Origin: a virus
Direction: 5' to 3' (one strand)
Length of the DNA stretch: 20,592 nucleotides
IMG/VR virus record: IMGVR_UViG_3300031787_008233
Coordinates: 1-20,592 of that record
Shown: piece by piece, positions 2,515 to 15,020 of the stretch
How the letters are laid out: every line of letters begins with the position of its first letter
How positions within the stretch are numbered: position 1 is the first letter of the stretch
The notes under the pieces: model-generated
The model's input: the letters and a program-made list of their open reading frames with translations, nothing else
Told to the model about the DNA's origin: nothing
Database searches by the model: none
Translations under genes and position numbers: made by a program

Positions 2515-4101
2515 TTATTGATTAATCATTGACTTTAATATATTTGACCAATGTGGCCTAGAACCTTCAATATGATCTAAATAATATTTTTCATCTTCTG
2601 GTAAATTGTTTGCATCAAAATACCATGGTTCGTGTCTAGCAAAAAAATTGCTAGCTGCTCTATACGCAAAATCACTATAACCGCAAGCCATACCAGGAGA
2701 ATTAACAGCAAATGTTGTATCAACCGGTGCCTTGAATAATTGACATTTTTCATCCATAATATATTCTCGTTCAAAGAAACTACTCTCATGTTGTACAACT
2801 CGTTCTTTTAACGGAAAGTGATCTGGCAAATCATCAATCTTAAGACTTAATCCTAATTTAGGTATTTGATATTTTTTACACATTTCAATCATATCATCAA
2901 TAAATGTGTCCGGAACTGTTTCTGTGGGTACTACATCACTATCTGTATATACATGATATTCATTTAAAACAATGTGATTGTATTTATTCTGAAATTCTGA
3001 TTCGTAATTTCGTACGCAATCTAAAGCTTCGGGGCCATAATTACTTTTGCAAAAATATACTTGATCTGAATGTAATGTTTTATACCAATCTAATAATGGC
3101 GGGTATGTTGATCCATTATCTAATATAACAATATTGTGATAACCTCTATCAGTTAATGATTTAACTAATCGTTTTGTTGGTTCTAAACGATTAAAATTAC
3201 AAATAAAAATATATGTAGATTTCATATTAGTATCCTTTATTACATAATTAAAAAGTTGTCTCGTTGTTAAATTGTTTTTAGCATATTGCAATAATAATTT
3301 AGTATATACAATGGCATCTTCAGATGTTAATTCTCCTATACGTAATTTAAAATTACAATCCAATATTAATTTTTTAGGAAAACTAATCATTGTGTGTTGA
3401 GGACATTGTTCTAAATCAGTAAAATATGGTATACATCCATTTGCAATGATTTCATAATGTCGTAGACAATCCCAACCGCCTTTTTTAAAAGTAACTCCAA
3501 AATAAGATTCTTGATACCCATTATAATAATCTTGTTCATTATCATATATGTATGTAGACAAATCTCCGGGAATTATAGTTGCATATTCTTTATGTTTTTC
3601 TGGAACATTTTCTAAAATAATATCTTCCGGAATAGCAAAATACAAAGCCTTTGCTTTATCCATATCACTTGTTAAAAGTTCTCGTTTAAAATACGTACCA
3701 TATTCTAATAAATTAGTTCTGATAGATTGATCGTCTTCTCCGTCAATTAAAATTACATCTTTTTTATCATATGTTTCCGTAACTAAATCAAAATAATCTA
3801 AACATCTTGTGCAAGAACCGTATATAATTTTATCAAAATAATGTTCTTTGATTTTTTCCGGAATATTAGTTCTATCAATATTATCTTCAGTTAATCTACC
3901 ACACATGGTAAAACCTCTACCGTATGATTTGCCGGCATCTGGTACTCTTGTTGTCCAATGAAGATCTTTTTCATCTTTATACATGTACCATAATTTGTTA
4001 CAATCAACAAAATTATCTCCTAATGCCGTACGACCTCCATGAAATATCATATCGCTTTGATAATCTGGTAGATCACCTTTTGCTATAAAAAGTATTTTCA
4101 T
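2515..4101 (-). CDS. Two-domain glycosyltransferase: GT-B/exostosin-like N-half fused to a GT2-like C-half
   Basis: A 528-residue protein with two apparent catalytic modules. Residues 1 to about 290 look like the C-terminal half of a GT-B or exostosin-like enzyme: residues 208-227 (GGWDCLRHYE, then ANGCIPYF) resemble the donor-binding segment of that group. Residues 293-528 restart as a GT-A fold: TYIFICNFNRLEPTKRL, DNGS at 328-331 and a DxD-type TDSD at 386-389. The seam at Met293 carries a full ribosome binding site (AAAGGA, seven-base spacing), so a separate 236-residue C-terminal protein may also be made. The gene starts one base into the preceding epimerase stop (TAATG). A bifunctional enzyme adding two successive sugars is an inference. 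Each domain call is moderate. Confidence 0.72.
   Translation of the reverse strand: MKILFIAKGDLPDYQSDMIFHGGRTALGDNFVDCNKLWYMYKDEKDLHWTTRVPDAGKSYGRGFTMCGRLTEDNIDRTNIPEKIKEHYFDKIIYGSCTRCLDYFDLVTETYDKKDVILIDGEDDQSIRTNLLEYGTYFKRELLTSDMDKAKALYFAIPEDIILENVPEKHKEYATIIPGDLSTYIYDNEQDYYNGYQESYFGVTFKKGGWDCLRHYEIIANGCIPYFTDLEQCPQHTMISFPKKLILDCNFKLRIGELTSEDAIVYTKLLLQYAKNNLTTRQLFNYVIKDTNMKSTYIFICNFNRLEPTKRLVKSLTDRGYHNIVILDNGSTYPPLLDWYKTLHSDQVYFCKSNYGPEALDCVRNYESEFQNKYNHIVLNEYHVYTDSDVVPTETVPDTFIDDMIEMCKKYQIPKLGLSLKIDDLPDHFPLKERVVQHESSFFEREYIMDEKCQLFKAPVDTTFAVNSPGMACGYSDFAYRAASNFFARHEPWYFDANNLPEDEKYYLDHIEGSRPHWSNILKSMINQ
3223..3238 (-). promoter_or_regulatory. Internal ribosome binding site and possible internal start at a domain junction
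   Basis: Inside the fused glycosyltransferase, the coding strand reads AAAGGA at 3238-3233, seven bases of spacing, then ATG at 3225-3223, exactly where the GT-A domain begins. The same AAAGGA-type element precedes real starts at 13553, 17771 and 20265. The ATG sits in the string TAATATG, the same string that forms stop-start junctions at three other gene boundaries here, although in this case the TAA is out of frame. Internal initiation would give residues 293-528 as a separate protein ending at 2515. Confidence 0.45.
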
Positions 4102-5745: not shown

Positions 5746-6555
5746 TTAGAATATAAATTTCCAAATACCTTCCATAATGTTAGGACCTTGATTTAGCTGT
5801 TGCCATGCTGGCCGATTATCGCCATTTGGGTCCATATATGAATTAGTAAAATCTTGTATTTTTTTATAGAATGATTGCGAATTTCTTTTTATTAATTTTT
5901 TACTAGCAATAAATTGATTTCCGGCGCCGAACTCCCAACTAGTTGGAGGATTCCATTTACCATCAATATTGGTAGCCGGCATCGATTTACAGAATTCCAA
6001 CCACGGAACTTTTGAAAAATCATCACTGTATAAAGACCATTGATAATCATGATCGGGCCATATCGTTCCAATTTGATCACAAAATGGTTCAAATTCTATA
6101 ACAGATTCAATTACATGCGGAATAGAATTTGTTAATTGCCCACCGGGTTGTTTTGTATATGTAGTATGTTTAATTTGATCTGGATTATTAAATATATTAA
6201 TTACATTTGAAACATATATTTCTGGATGAGCTTGTACGAATACCGTATAGTCATTTAACTGTTTGTATTTAGAATAACAATGAAACGCATATGTACTAGC
6301 TTCAAAGCCTGGATCATCTGGTATATTAATAATTTCTAAATTGATGCCATTTGCTTTGCATCGTTCTACATCTAAGCCGCCTAAAACATCATTTGGGTCT
6401 TTTGGTTTTGCCCATGCAACTGCATCCGGAACTCCCATTCCGGGAGATTCGCCGGACCTATTATATACGTATACATCTACATTCGATGTAATTTGTTCTA
6501 TCCAACGTAAATCTTCATAATATCTAGAAACTACGATGCCTACTTCGTTTTTCAT
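5746..6555 (-). CDS. DUF3431-family protein, putative glycosyltransferase-like
   Basis: A 269-residue protein that fits the DUF3431 pattern along its length. It opens with IVVSRYYEDLRWI (residues 7-19), then a YVYNRSG strand. GFEASTYAFHCYSKY at 83-97 runs into DYTVFVQAHPE (about 102-112), the most diagnostic part of the family. The C-terminal half has EFGAGNQFIASKKLIKR followed by FYKKI. The biochemical role of DUF3431 is not established; members occur near polysaccharide genes and are often regarded as glycosyltransferase-like. No signal peptide or helix is visible. The ATG shares one base with the preceding methyltransferase stop (TAATG) and is preceded by AAAGGATAG. Confidence 0.75.
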   Translation of the reverse strand: MKNEVGIVVSRYYEDLRWIEQITSNVDVYVYNRSGESPGMGVPDAVAWAKPKDPNDVLGGLDVERCKANGINLEIINIPDDPGFEASTYAFHCYSKYKQLNDYTVFVQAHPEIYVSNVINIFNNPDQIKHTTYTKQPGGQLTNSIPHVIESVIEFEPFCDQIGTIWPDHDYQWSLYSDDFSKVPWLEFCKSMPATNIDGKWNPPTSWEFGAGNQFIASKKLIKRNSQSFYKKIQDFTNSYMDPNGDNRPAWQQLNQGPNIMEGIWKFIF

Positions 6556-7289
6556 TAATCTATCCTTTTTGAAAAAATTTCAGATGTGTAACCAGCTCTA
6601 TCCAAAATAAAATTACTTTCATATGGTTCGAATCCATATTTTTGTATATGAACAACCCAATATTCTCTAGGTTGTGCATTGCAATGTATATGTTTATGGT
6701 CTTCAGCTGGATACTCAGTCGTGCACGCCGTAAAAATTAAATGCGTACCAGTTTTAGAATGATTTCTAATATTTTGCATTAATGCAGTTACGCTTTCATC
6801 TGAAATATGTTCGAAATGTTCAAATGATATAATTAAATCAAATAAAATTTTATTACCATTTGAATCTGTAAAATCTAACGGTTGATCGGTACGAGCAATA
6901 AAATGATTATCATCAATATATGGACTATTAATTACTTCTCTGTTTGCGTCTACAGTTACTGTAACAATATTGGGATCTAATTTTCTAATATAATTACTTA
7001 GTTGTCCGCTGCCACATCCTAAATCTAAAACATATTTAGGCTGTATAGTAGTTACTAAATATTCTGCAATTCTAGAAAACATGTTATGCCATAATTCTAA
7101 AAAATTATCTAATGGCATATGTTTGATATCTCTATTTAAAAATTCAGTACCTGGAGAATTTTTCCATACTAATGCATCATGAAATTGAAACCCGGGTGCT
7201 AGATTTCCATTTTCATCAACCCCAAATGATGTATTTTCTTTTTGAAAAAATCCAGTTATATTTTTTTTATTTTTTTGAAGTATTTTCAT
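6555..7289 (-). CDS. Class I SAM-dependent methyltransferase
   Basis: A 244-residue protein. I take the ATG at 7289, one base after the upstream stop (TAATATG), rather than a TTG at 7319 that would overlap the previous gene. The SAM-binding motif VLDLGCGSG is at residues 87-95, followed by an acidic strand end (VTVDANRE), then LIISFEHFEHI (motif IV region) and an unusual His/Cys-rich EDHKHIHCNAQPREYW segment. An N-terminal extension of about 60 residues precedes the fold. It could methylate a sugar, a nucleotide sugar or a small molecule; the fold is clear and the substrate is not. It sits between a GDP-fucose-synthase-like reductase and DUF3431. Confidence 0.84.
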   Translation of the reverse strand: MKILQKNKKNITGFFQKENTSFGVDENGNLAPGFQFHDALVWKNSPGTEFLNRDIKHMPLDNFLELWHNMFSRIAEYLVTTIQPKYVLDLGCGSGQLSNYIRKLDPNIVTVTVDANREVINSPYIDDNHFIARTDQPLDFTDSNGNKILFDLIISFEHFEHISDESVTALMQNIRNHSKTGTHLIFTACTTEYPAEDHKHIHCNAQPREYWVVHIQKYGFEPYESNFILDRAGYTSEIFSKRID

Positions 7290-12345: not shown

Positions 12346-13149
12346 TTAATACCTTAATGGTGCGTTCCAATTTGATGTCATTATTACTCCCATATAACAT
12401 GAAGCTATATCTTGTTCTGTATATCCTTGTTGTAAAAATTGTTGATATTGCAATGGATAATGAAATACCATGAATAACGGTTCAACGGGATATATTTCAA
12501 TTGGTTTGAATGCTAACAATGCTTCTCCATACCATGTAAATTCACTTGGCTCGAAATCAATTAATTGATTAAATGTTATGTTATTTGGCTCTAAATAATT
12601 TTGTTCCAATGATTCCCATACTTTACTAGACCATATGGTTGGAGATGGACCAAAATCATAATTCATATTAATTTCACGATTAAAAATTTTTCCAATTTTA
12701 TTTCTAGATGCATCAAAGCTTTGTTTAGGATCAAATCCTAACTCTCGACGATATCTAGCAGTCCATTGAAATAAATTTTTTTGTTGATGCATTACCGTAT
12801 ATGGCGTAGTATCATGTGCAATAAAATCATGTATATAAAACGGTCGAATAAAATATGAATCGGAATCAATACATACGTAATTCGATGTTGGCACGAGTTT
12901 ATAAAATTGTGATTTTACAATTTGTTGCGTATGCCAAGACTGTTCTATAGATTGTTGAATAATATCTTCATCTAAAATCAAATTAACAAAATCAGGTAAA
13001 TTATTTTTAAATGTTTCATAATCAGATTTTGGACATGAAACGTAATATGGTATTTTATCAACATTGTATTGAGCAATTGATTCTGCTTGAATTTTAACTC
13101 GATTTAAATCATTGATATAACTTTTACAATATAATACTACGGTTTCCAT
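12346..13149 (-). CDS. DUF6492-family glycosyltransferase-like protein
   Basis: A 267-residue protein. I chose the ATG at 13149, which overlaps the upstream stop by one base (TAATG), over a TTG two codons earlier. It begins METVVLYCKSYINDLNR, the N-terminal signature of DUF6492, followed by IPYYVSCPKSDYETF, LDEDII and a CIDSDSYF strand at 93-100 that provides a DxD metal site. SQFYKLVPT and a late PLFMVFHYPLQY also fit the family, which has a predicted GT-A fold but no defined substrate. No signal peptide or membrane segment is visible. It precedes the GalE-like gene by one base. Confidence 0.75.
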   Translation of the reverse strand: METVVLYCKSYINDLNRVKIQAESIAQYNVDKIPYYVSCPKSDYETFKNNLPDFVNLILDEDIIQQSIEQSWHTQQIVKSQFYKLVPTSNYVCIDSDSYFIRPFYIHDFIAHDTTPYTVMHQQKNLFQWTARYRRELGFDPKQSFDASRNKIGKIFNREINMNYDFGPSPTIWSSKVWESLEQNYLEPNNITFNQLIDFEPSEFTWYGEALLAFKPIEIYPVEPLFMVFHYPLQYQQFLQQGYTEQDIASCYMGVIMTSNWNAPLRY

Positions 13150-13553
13150 TACCAACTAATTTCCCAATCTTTAAATTCTGCAGCTAAACAATCAATTTTA
13201 TAATCTTTACGACCGCCAACAATTTCTTGAATTTTATTTTTAGCAGTATTTCTAATACCATTGATGCCATGAGTTAATTCTAGATTATTACCATCTTTAA
13301 TACCTTTACGATAATTTGATTCATTATGCCATATATGCAAATTCATTTGACTCAAAACAACAATTGCACGAATTGTTTCAGCTGTAATTTCTGATTTATT
13401 TTCATCAATATGTTTTTGTATATCATATACAATATCTTGAATTTCTTGACCATATTCTGCTTTGTGCTCTGGTATGAATACTTCTTTTAATTGTACAATT
13501 GATAATCTATCTATTAATTCGCTTAATGTTGGTAGATACTTTCTGTCTTTCAT
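13149..13553 (-). CDS. Small conserved-looking protein of unknown function in the glycosyltransferase operon
   Basis: A 134-residue protein I do not recognise with confidence. It has an N-terminal LPTLSELIDRLSIVQLK helix, a mainly helical middle, IVVLSQMNLHIWHNESNYRKG, then HGINGIRNTAKNKI and a final KDYKID. The pattern of a SELIDRLSI helix and an IWHNE motif reminds me of small helical proteins found beside phage glycosyltransferases and, loosely, of DUF4254-type sequences, but I cannot assert membership. No transmembrane helix is present. AAAGGA lies upstream of its ATG, which overlaps the stop of the preceding GT2 by four bases (ATGA). A partner or regulator of the adjacent transferases is a guess. 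Confidence 0.7.
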   Translation of the reverse strand: MKDRKYLPTLSELIDRLSIVQLKEVFIPEHKAEYGQEIQDIVYDIQKHIDENKSEITAETIRAIVVLSQMNLHIWHNESNYRKGIKDGNNLELTHGINGIRNTAKNKIQEIVGGRKDYKIDCLAAEFKDWEISW

Positions 13554-14404
13554 TTTTTTATTCCTTTAATTGTTCCAAATTCGTCAAATATGGGTAATCC
13601 GCCCCATTTGTTATAAAATTTTGTTTGATTTATTGATTCTGCTGTTTTTTGTCTAATATCTGTTTGACCATTGTTTTCTTCTAAACGATGTGAACCTCTT
13701 GCTCCAAAATGCCATACTAATGATTTAGTTGTTAATACAAAATGATATCCTGCATTCCGCATTCGTAAAAATAAATCCATATCTTCCCAGGAAGCTGGTG
13801 CAAACTGAGGATCGTTACCTCCAATACGATCCCAATCTTTCTTTTTAATTAATCCAGAAACGCCTTCGGTTTTTGGTATTTTAATATTATTAGTTTTAGT
13901 AAATTCTTTTGCCCATTCTTCAAATGCAGCTGCGTTAAAATCATCATGATATGCACCGAAAATATCTTTTTCAACGATAATTGTGCCTGGGCGCGACTGT
14001 CCGTTACCAAACATATCTGGCTCTATTCGATAACTAAATACCCATGTTGGCGCTTGATATTTTTCATGTTCTTGTAAGCATTCAATATCCCAATTTTTAG
14101 ATACATAAAAATCCGAATGAAGGAACATGATATATTCTGTTTCAACATGATCGGCACAAACATTCATTCCACCTCCAATACCTCGAACTTCAATATTTTC
14201 AGGTTCAACAAGTAAAGTTAAATTATATTTATCTTGATTTTCAAATAACCATTCATTAGTTCCATCAGTACAATTTTCAGCGTGAATAATAAATGGTGCA
14301 TCTTTAAAATAACTATTCTTTCTAACTGATTGAATTGCTAATTTAAGATATGATAAATTGTTATATGTGGATATACAAAATGTTATCGGACTAGAGTGTA
14401 TCAT
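13550..14404 (-). CDS. Family 2 glycosyltransferase
   Basis: A 284-residue GT-A protein. I use the ATG at 14404 because the fold starts immediately after it (ITFCISTYNNLSYL); a longer frame to 14485 would add 27 residues with no family character and overlap the upstream gene by 95 bases. HAENCTDGTNEWL replaces the usual DDGS, HSDF at 96-99 is the DxD equivalent, and ASWEDMDLF with WHFGARGSHR at about 231-240 supplies catalytic and acceptor elements. The second half resembles the GT2 at 598-1758 (GGNDPQFAPASWED versus GGHDPMFAPFPYED). It overlaps the upstream GT2 by 14 bases and the downstream unknown by four. Confidence 0.85.
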   Translation of the reverse strand: MIHSSPITFCISTYNNLSYLKLAIQSVRKNSYFKDAPFIIHAENCTDGTNEWLFENQDKYNLTLLVEPENIEVRGIGGGMNVCADHVETEYIMFLHSDFYVSKNWDIECLQEHEKYQAPTWVFSYRIEPDMFGNGQSRPGTIIVEKDIFGAYHDDFNAAAFEEWAKEFTKTNNIKIPKTEGVSGLIKKKDWDRIGGNDPQFAPASWEDMDLFLRMRNAGYHFVLTTKSLVWHFGARGSHRLEENNGQTDIRQKTAESINQTKFYNKWGGLPIFDEFGTIKGIKK

Positions 14405-15020
14405 AATATGCGTTTTGTTTTTCCTGTCGTTCAATTGTTTTTGGATGATATAATGCCCATTCTTTCTCCATTGGTAAGTAAGCAAATTGTTTATGCCCTT
14501 CTAATCGTTCATGAACTTTATTTTTCCATTTTATTTCTGGGAGATTTTTGTAGATTCTAGTTTGAAAATCAGGCCAGTTAACCCAGCCATTTTCATTCAC
14601 ATTCCATCTCCAGTTTTGAATATGTTTATCTGTTAAACCATCTACAGTATTAATTCTTGGAACAGCATATAATTCAACAGCCGAGTTATGTTCTAAGAGT
14701 GTAGGAAGATTTTGAATTAAATATTCTGAAGGAATTTCATCTGCATCAATCTGGAAAATATATTCTCCTTTACATGATTGAGTTAACATATTTTTCCAAT
14801 CAGAAAAATGTCCATTAAATAAATCTTCAACTAAAGTAATTTTATTATTAGAACTTAATTTATGTAAGTATCCTAATAATTCAGATGTTGGTTCGTTTTT
14901 AGTCATATCAACTAAAACTACTATTTCATCTTGTAGTCTTTTATTCTTTAATAAGAATGTAATAAGTCGTTGTATTTCAACAAACTCATTACAAACTGTT
15001 ACGGCATAACTTATTTTCAT
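14391..15020 (-). CDS. Family 2 glycosyltransferase of the LPS-core/LgtF-like type
   Basis: A 209-residue protein. MKISYAVTVCNEF is the typical GT2 N-terminus of the LPS-core beta-glucosyltransferase group, and IDADE at residues 91-95 is a textbook metal-binding DxD. Later come RIYKNLPEIKWKNKVHERLEG, a segment strongly associated with this subgroup, and an aromatic LYHPKTIERQ near the end. It is shorter than most relatives (about 250-300 residues) because the C-terminal region is compact. AAAGG precedes the ATG, which lies one base after the upstream GT4 stop. Product and acceptor are not predictable. Confidence 0.85.
   Translation of the reverse strand: MKISYAVTVCNEFVEIQRLITFLLKNKRLQDEIVVLVDMTKNEPTSELLGYLHKLSSNNKITLVEDLFNGHFSDWKNMLTQSCKGEYIFQIDADEIPSEYLIQNLPTLLEHNSAVELYAVPRINTVDGLTDKHIQNWRWNVNENGWVNWPDFQTRIYKNLPEIKWKNKVHERLEGHKQFAYLPMEKEWALYHPKTIERQEKQNAYYDTL

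Follow-up and report, generated by a model that had tools for sequence, protein, structure and literature searches.

Introduction

A single chain of the exostosins EXT1/EXT2 combines a GT-B with a GT-A part (families GT47 and GT64), and Pasteurella heparosan synthase 2 likewise carries two glycosyltransferase domains in one chain, presumably both GT-A. Each kind of domain is also encoded alone, i.e., by free GT-B-like glycosyltransferases of phages (here L043, L044 and their relatives) and by free GT-A-like transferases of viruses (L020, L028) and bacteria (L076-L155). A further related arrangement is the gene with an in-frame internal start for a free C-terminal domain, in which a start codon and a Shine-Dalgarno (SD)-like site lie at a domain boundary.

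The window, by which we mean the whole stretch of viral DNA analysed (20,592 nucleotides, IMG/VR record IMGVR_UViG_3300031787_008233), contains a fused glycosyltransferase gene on the minus strand (2515-4101; 528 codons plus stop) that resembles each of these systems in part. Its predicted GT-B and GT-A parts follow one another as in exostosin 7sch_A, the best match of the whole chain in a Foldseek search of the PDB (E 1.1e-5), with EXTL2 also among the matches; unlike in 7sch_A, to which it is 8% identical with a TM of 0.22 over the chain, the two domains are placed differently. No Pfam exostosin family matched the fusion at E up to 1, or the 65 aligned members at E up to 0.01, and the likeness is one of plan and not of membership. 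Heparosan synthase 2 was also matched by Foldseek (8vh8), but at 12-13% identity and a TM of 0.19-0.21. With the internal-start genes the fusion shares the start codon and the SD-like site at the domain boundary; unlike in those genes, the site is not conserved in its fused relatives.

Results and Discussion

The TAA at the seam of the gene is out of frame, so that the two domains are read as one in the 528-codon frame, as a first reading of the sequence alone had noticed. A structure model of the fusion was built from 65 sequences (mean pLDDT 85, mostly 70-97 over residues 1-292), and an earlier model from four sequences (pLDDT 39) was set aside. In the model, the final helix of the N-terminal domain (residues 1-292; 3226-4101, minus strand) stops at residue 292, and the first strand of the C-terminal domain (residues 293-528 plus stop; 2515-3225, minus strand) begins at residue 297. 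By VIA-align, which splits the chain where the model does, modelled residues 1-293 were superposed on BshA 6n1x (Z 13.7, 255 residues, rmsd 4.4), and many further GT-B entries aligned with modelled residues 1-295, while residues 292-513 were superposed on B4GALNT1 9h6k (Z 12.2, 174 residues, rmsd 3.3) and on GnTI 1fo8 (Z 11.2). The prediction thus gives the N-domain the two Rossmann-like halves of a GT-B fold and the C-domain a GT-A fold, which supports the GT-B/GT-A fusion proposed by the sequence-only reading. A metal-binding (D-x-D) motif of the form T-D-x-D, with D95 and D97 of the C-domain, is invariant in five diverse members.

In sequence searches, residues 1-292 matched no Pfam family at E up to 1, the N-domain profile found no relative among solved chains, and the C-domain profile found two chance-level rows only. 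The fusion scored 13.5 bits against PF00535 (Glycosyl transferase family 2), i.e., below the cut-off of 23.3, and 19 of the 65 aligned members matched this family at E up to 0.01. Pfam and PHROGs otherwise gave weak matches under the cut-off, those to Cmr1_C and thymidylate kinase being read as chance, and nothing matched when the whole protein was compared with 50,697 phage records. In a viral structure library the best matches to the fusion model were giant-virus proteins (Fadolivirus, Cafeteria roenbergensis virus; 23-31% identity), and one of the two domains may have giant-virus relatives. The gene is surrounded by transferases, methyltransferases and nucleotide-sugar enzymes, as judged by eye from the window ORFs.

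Both domains also exist in free form. Free relatives of the N-domain in other contigs have 283-299 residues, and 31 of the 37 viral N-domain loci lack the C-domain. The C-domain has free relatives in phages and bacteria: it is free in 17 of the 25 viral loci, part of the fusion in six and joined to another GT2-like domain in two; among the 80 bacterial loci kept of 121 found (those kept being mostly from Bacteroidota), 72 are free, eight carry other extensions and none carries the N-domain. The joining to a different, GT2-like N-terminal domain is seen at L012:3092-4654 and likewise in L013, L033 and L034 (another phage); the C-domain module has thus entered fusions on more than one occasion.

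We ran the comparison with homologues having separate domains that the sequence-only reading had called for, and the closest free N-domain stops, and the closest free C-domain starts, at the seam. The N-domain of L043/L044 is 61% identical and ends at the same point as that of the fusion, from which it differs by a stop at the seam; it reads NYIIND-stop and is overlapped by the next gene, where the window reads NYVIKDTNMKS. The counterpart of the window gene next after the fusion is separated from it in L043/L044 by three other genes. The free GT-A-like transferases share the TD-x-D motif and KIDD[LI]PD with the C-domain, but they are separate genes and at best 42-44% identical to it. The free C-domain L020 starts with MKNIPIVILN where the fusion has MKSTYIFICN, the initiator of L020 standing at the column of Met293. 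Since the closest free C-domains start with MKN at this column, the seam ATG (3223-3225, minus strand; in-frame codon 293) is a relic of the C-domain's own initiator. Adjacent but separate genes for the two domains were found in no contig examined; in the group L020/L022/L023 with L045-L047, a single contig carries both in free form, at a distance of about 3.1 kb.

In six more contigs the fusion is likewise an open, in-frame gene: L001 and L004 (100% identity), L002 and L003 (84%), L005 (83%) and L010 (73%). Together with the window these make four distinct fused lineages with protein identities of 73-100%, and a rescan with the fused proteins as query revealed no fused contigs beyond the six. 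The fused members form one clade in the trees of both the N-domain (support 100/99) and the C-domain (100/97), with L010 outside the window, L002 and L005, and with L043/L044 and L020/L028 as the closest free N- and C-domains, respectively. Among the fused lineages, dN is 0.09-0.21 in both domains and dS ranges from about 0.9 to saturated, being mostly at least 1; the low dN against the high dS indicates that both domains are under purifying selection.

We consider it likely that the locus is an ordinary, stable in-frame GT-B/GT-A fusion that arose from one event, retains a relic start codon and yields one 528-residue protein. Two glycosyltransferase genes, one GT-B-type and one GT-A-type, that a T4-like phage once carried apart would have joined a single time, before at least four lineages diverged; the first gene would have lost its stop codon, the few intergenic bases would have become two or three codons, and the ATG at which the second gene once began would have turned into an internal Met at the linker (Val in one lineage). 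As far as can be judged from the sequence, the fused gene would give a single product with two putative active sites, which probably acts in the sugar gene cluster of the phage, and such a two-headed transferase might add two sugars, or alternate, within this cluster.

What drew attention to the seam is the string on the coding strand at 3238-3223 (minus), AAAGGA-TACTAAT-ATG, i.e., an SD-like AAAGGA (3233-3238) seven bases before the in-frame ATG, which itself is embedded in TAATATG (3223-3229) with an out-of-frame TAA. The description holds: the pairing of the seam with the 16S tail (-5.5 kcal/mol) is close to that of the five best real starts in the window (-6.6 to -5.6). Besides the seam, the exact pattern AAAGGA-N7-ATG stands in the window only where the gene 5746-6555 starts. 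The minus strand has six copies of TAATATG, always with an in-frame ATG; it forms the true stop-start junctions that had been named (ATG at 7289, 9818 and 12344) and lies inside genes in the other three copies (ATG at 12666, 3225 and 1835). Pairing with the 16S tail is weak at the three true junctions (-1.0, 0.2 and -3.9), so a combination of TAATATG and AAAGGA is not how junctions are built locally. When codons were resampled synonymously with the amino acids fixed, AAAGGA appeared in 3.4% of draws and TAATATG in 24%, and of 100 ATGs lying in frame inside genes, the seam among them, seven pair at least as strongly as the seam at a spacing of -18 to -4. The string thus exceeds chance only mildly, and its location at a domain boundary is what is beyond chance. 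An even stronger SD-like site (-9.9) precedes an in-frame internal ATG at 14167, in a Gly-rich stretch of the gene 13550-14485, a reminder that such internal sites arise often.

The seam codons differ among the fused lineages, being ATA AAG GAT ACT AAT ATG in the window, ATT AAA GAA ACC AAC ATG in L002 and L003, ATA AGA GAA ACG AAC GTG in L005 and ATA AAA GAA ATA CCT ACT ATG in L010. The position of AAAGGA is occupied by AAAGAA, AGAGAA and AAAGAA in the three other lineages, none of which has a TAA ahead of the seam ATG or GTG, and the pairing energy falls from -5.5 in the window to -1.0 in L002, -2.9 in L005 and -1.1 in L010. As both sister lineages and the outgroup L010 lack AAAGGA and TAA, the tree suggests that both were gained on the window's branch, where they would have arisen later than the fusion, through codon choice. 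The idea that the fusion retains an old start is thus borne out for the ATG, at which free C-domains begin, and fails for AAAGGA and TAATATG, which belong to the window's lineage only. Fused homologues in which AAAGGA or the ATG is not conserved, together with the absence of a short product, had been named as what would speak against the sequence-only reading; the point on homologues applies to AAAGGA, while the ATG is kept in three lineages and replaced by GTG in the fourth.

Foremost among the alternatives is a nested gene, in which the phage makes both the 528-residue fusion and a free 236-residue GT-A domain initiated at Met293, aided by AAAGGA in the window's lineage and elsewhere by an unstructured, A+T-rich seam. 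We regard it as possible but unlikely. In its favour, a start-capable codon stands at the seam in all four lineages (ATG, ATG, GTG, ATG), and a free GT-A domain would be a natural product, as 17 of the 25 viral C-domains are free. The start signals around this codon are not conserved across the fused relatives: AAAGGA is present in one lineage of four, TAATATG is confined to the same one, and the start-context score of the seam falls within the 6th-10th percentile of real starts and in none of the four lineages exceeds the synonymous null (P 0.39, 0.96, 0.37 and 0.08). The weight of the missing AAAGGA depends on how these phages initiate translation. When the first ATG per ORF was mechanically picked as gene start, which applies to the start-context score as well, SD-like sites were more frequent at starts than at internal ATGs both in the window (7/22 versus 8/99) and in its twin contig (14/44 versus 19/212), which shows that window-type phages do use such sites and counts for the nested gene, while they were found at only 2/39 starts in the contig of L010 and 4/50 in that of L044. 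Phages that hardly use SD sites, such as that of L010, would have no need of AAAGGA, and little can be read from its absence in that contig; with SD use varying among these phages, the loss of AAAGGA alone does not decide on the short product. Across the related phages sharing the sugar cluster (L156-L164), SD sites stand at some 30% of starts in G001 and G005 and at 5-8% in G003 and G004, and differing hosts or translation strategies may lie behind it.

The local mRNA structure at the seam also bears on a nested gene, since it is weak in all four lineages (-4.0, -5.2, -1.7 and -0.1). Measured against synonymous versions of the fusion gene, columns 294, 293 and 296 ranked first to third of 255 positions; with two neighbouring control genes added, column 294 was first and the seam (293) 11th of 544 positions, and in another scan the seam was first of 85. 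The scans use overlapping windows and several features were tried, so these ranks overstate independence; moreover, the signal stems mainly from L005 and L010 and corresponds to about 2% of overlapping positions. We therefore take the weak structure as a hint near the edge of chance and not as evidence. Near the seam, synonymous differences are mildly reduced (8th-24th percentile for the gene windows overlapping it), which points at most mildly towards a nested gene. What persists in all four lineages is the start-capable codon and the weak structure, and what does not is the ribosome-binding site. A more specific version, which we rate as distinctly unlikely, holds that the seam is a conserved, largely SD-independent internal start consisting of a start codon and unstructured mRNA, that the whole clade makes the two-headed transferase and a free GT-A half, and that the SD site was added in the window's lineage so that the short form would be made in greater proportion.

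The sequence-only reading had also offered a recent fusion that retains the old start. A recent fusion in which the signals of the former junction are still intact is very improbable. The position of the seam ATG at the column where free C-domains begin would fit it, but the four lineages at 73-100% identity, their single clade in both trees and synonymous sites near or beyond saturation together indicate that the fusion is neither recent nor an assembly slip, and AAAGGA and TAA are missing from both sister lineages and from L010. A one-base assembly error joining two genes, also raised there, can practically be dismissed; the window by itself would be compatible with it, but we found no support for it and the same frame is present in six further contigs, including L002, L003 and L005 at 83-84% and L010 at 73%, with L001 and L004 adding less on this point because the window's twin differs from it by one base in 20.6 kb.

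As for the phage itself, the clamp loader encoded by the window's twin contig matches T4-like phages of several hosts (best 46%, an uncultured phage), and the large protein beside it has two matching records (35-36%). A 536-residue GroEL-like chaperonin is encoded at L156:3115-4725, in a contig 99.99% identical to the window, with a thymidylate-synthase-like gene nearby; it matches many phages, and its best match among the records of the phage collection reaches 60.6% identity, those to Bacteroides phages 57-58%. According to one report (PMC9976891), Bacteroidota ribosomes do not recognise SD sites. This is not used as an argument here, because the phage may have another host and the phage of the window has SD-like sites at its starts. 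Following a lead related to another report (PMC9723584), we looked for a ribosomal protein S21 gene, and none was found in seven records, all of them possibly fragments.

Conclusions

As the window shows, an internal ribosome-binding site may look like one from a textbook, stand at a domain seam and still be an accident of one lineage. If the short product is real, the four lineages, with and without AAAGGA, would form a natural series in which the weight of such a site could be gauged. With both halves also occurring free, with one joining event and with the former start codon surviving as a residue of the linker, the stable fusion that we favour would illustrate cleanly how two-headed glycosyltransferases of phages come about.
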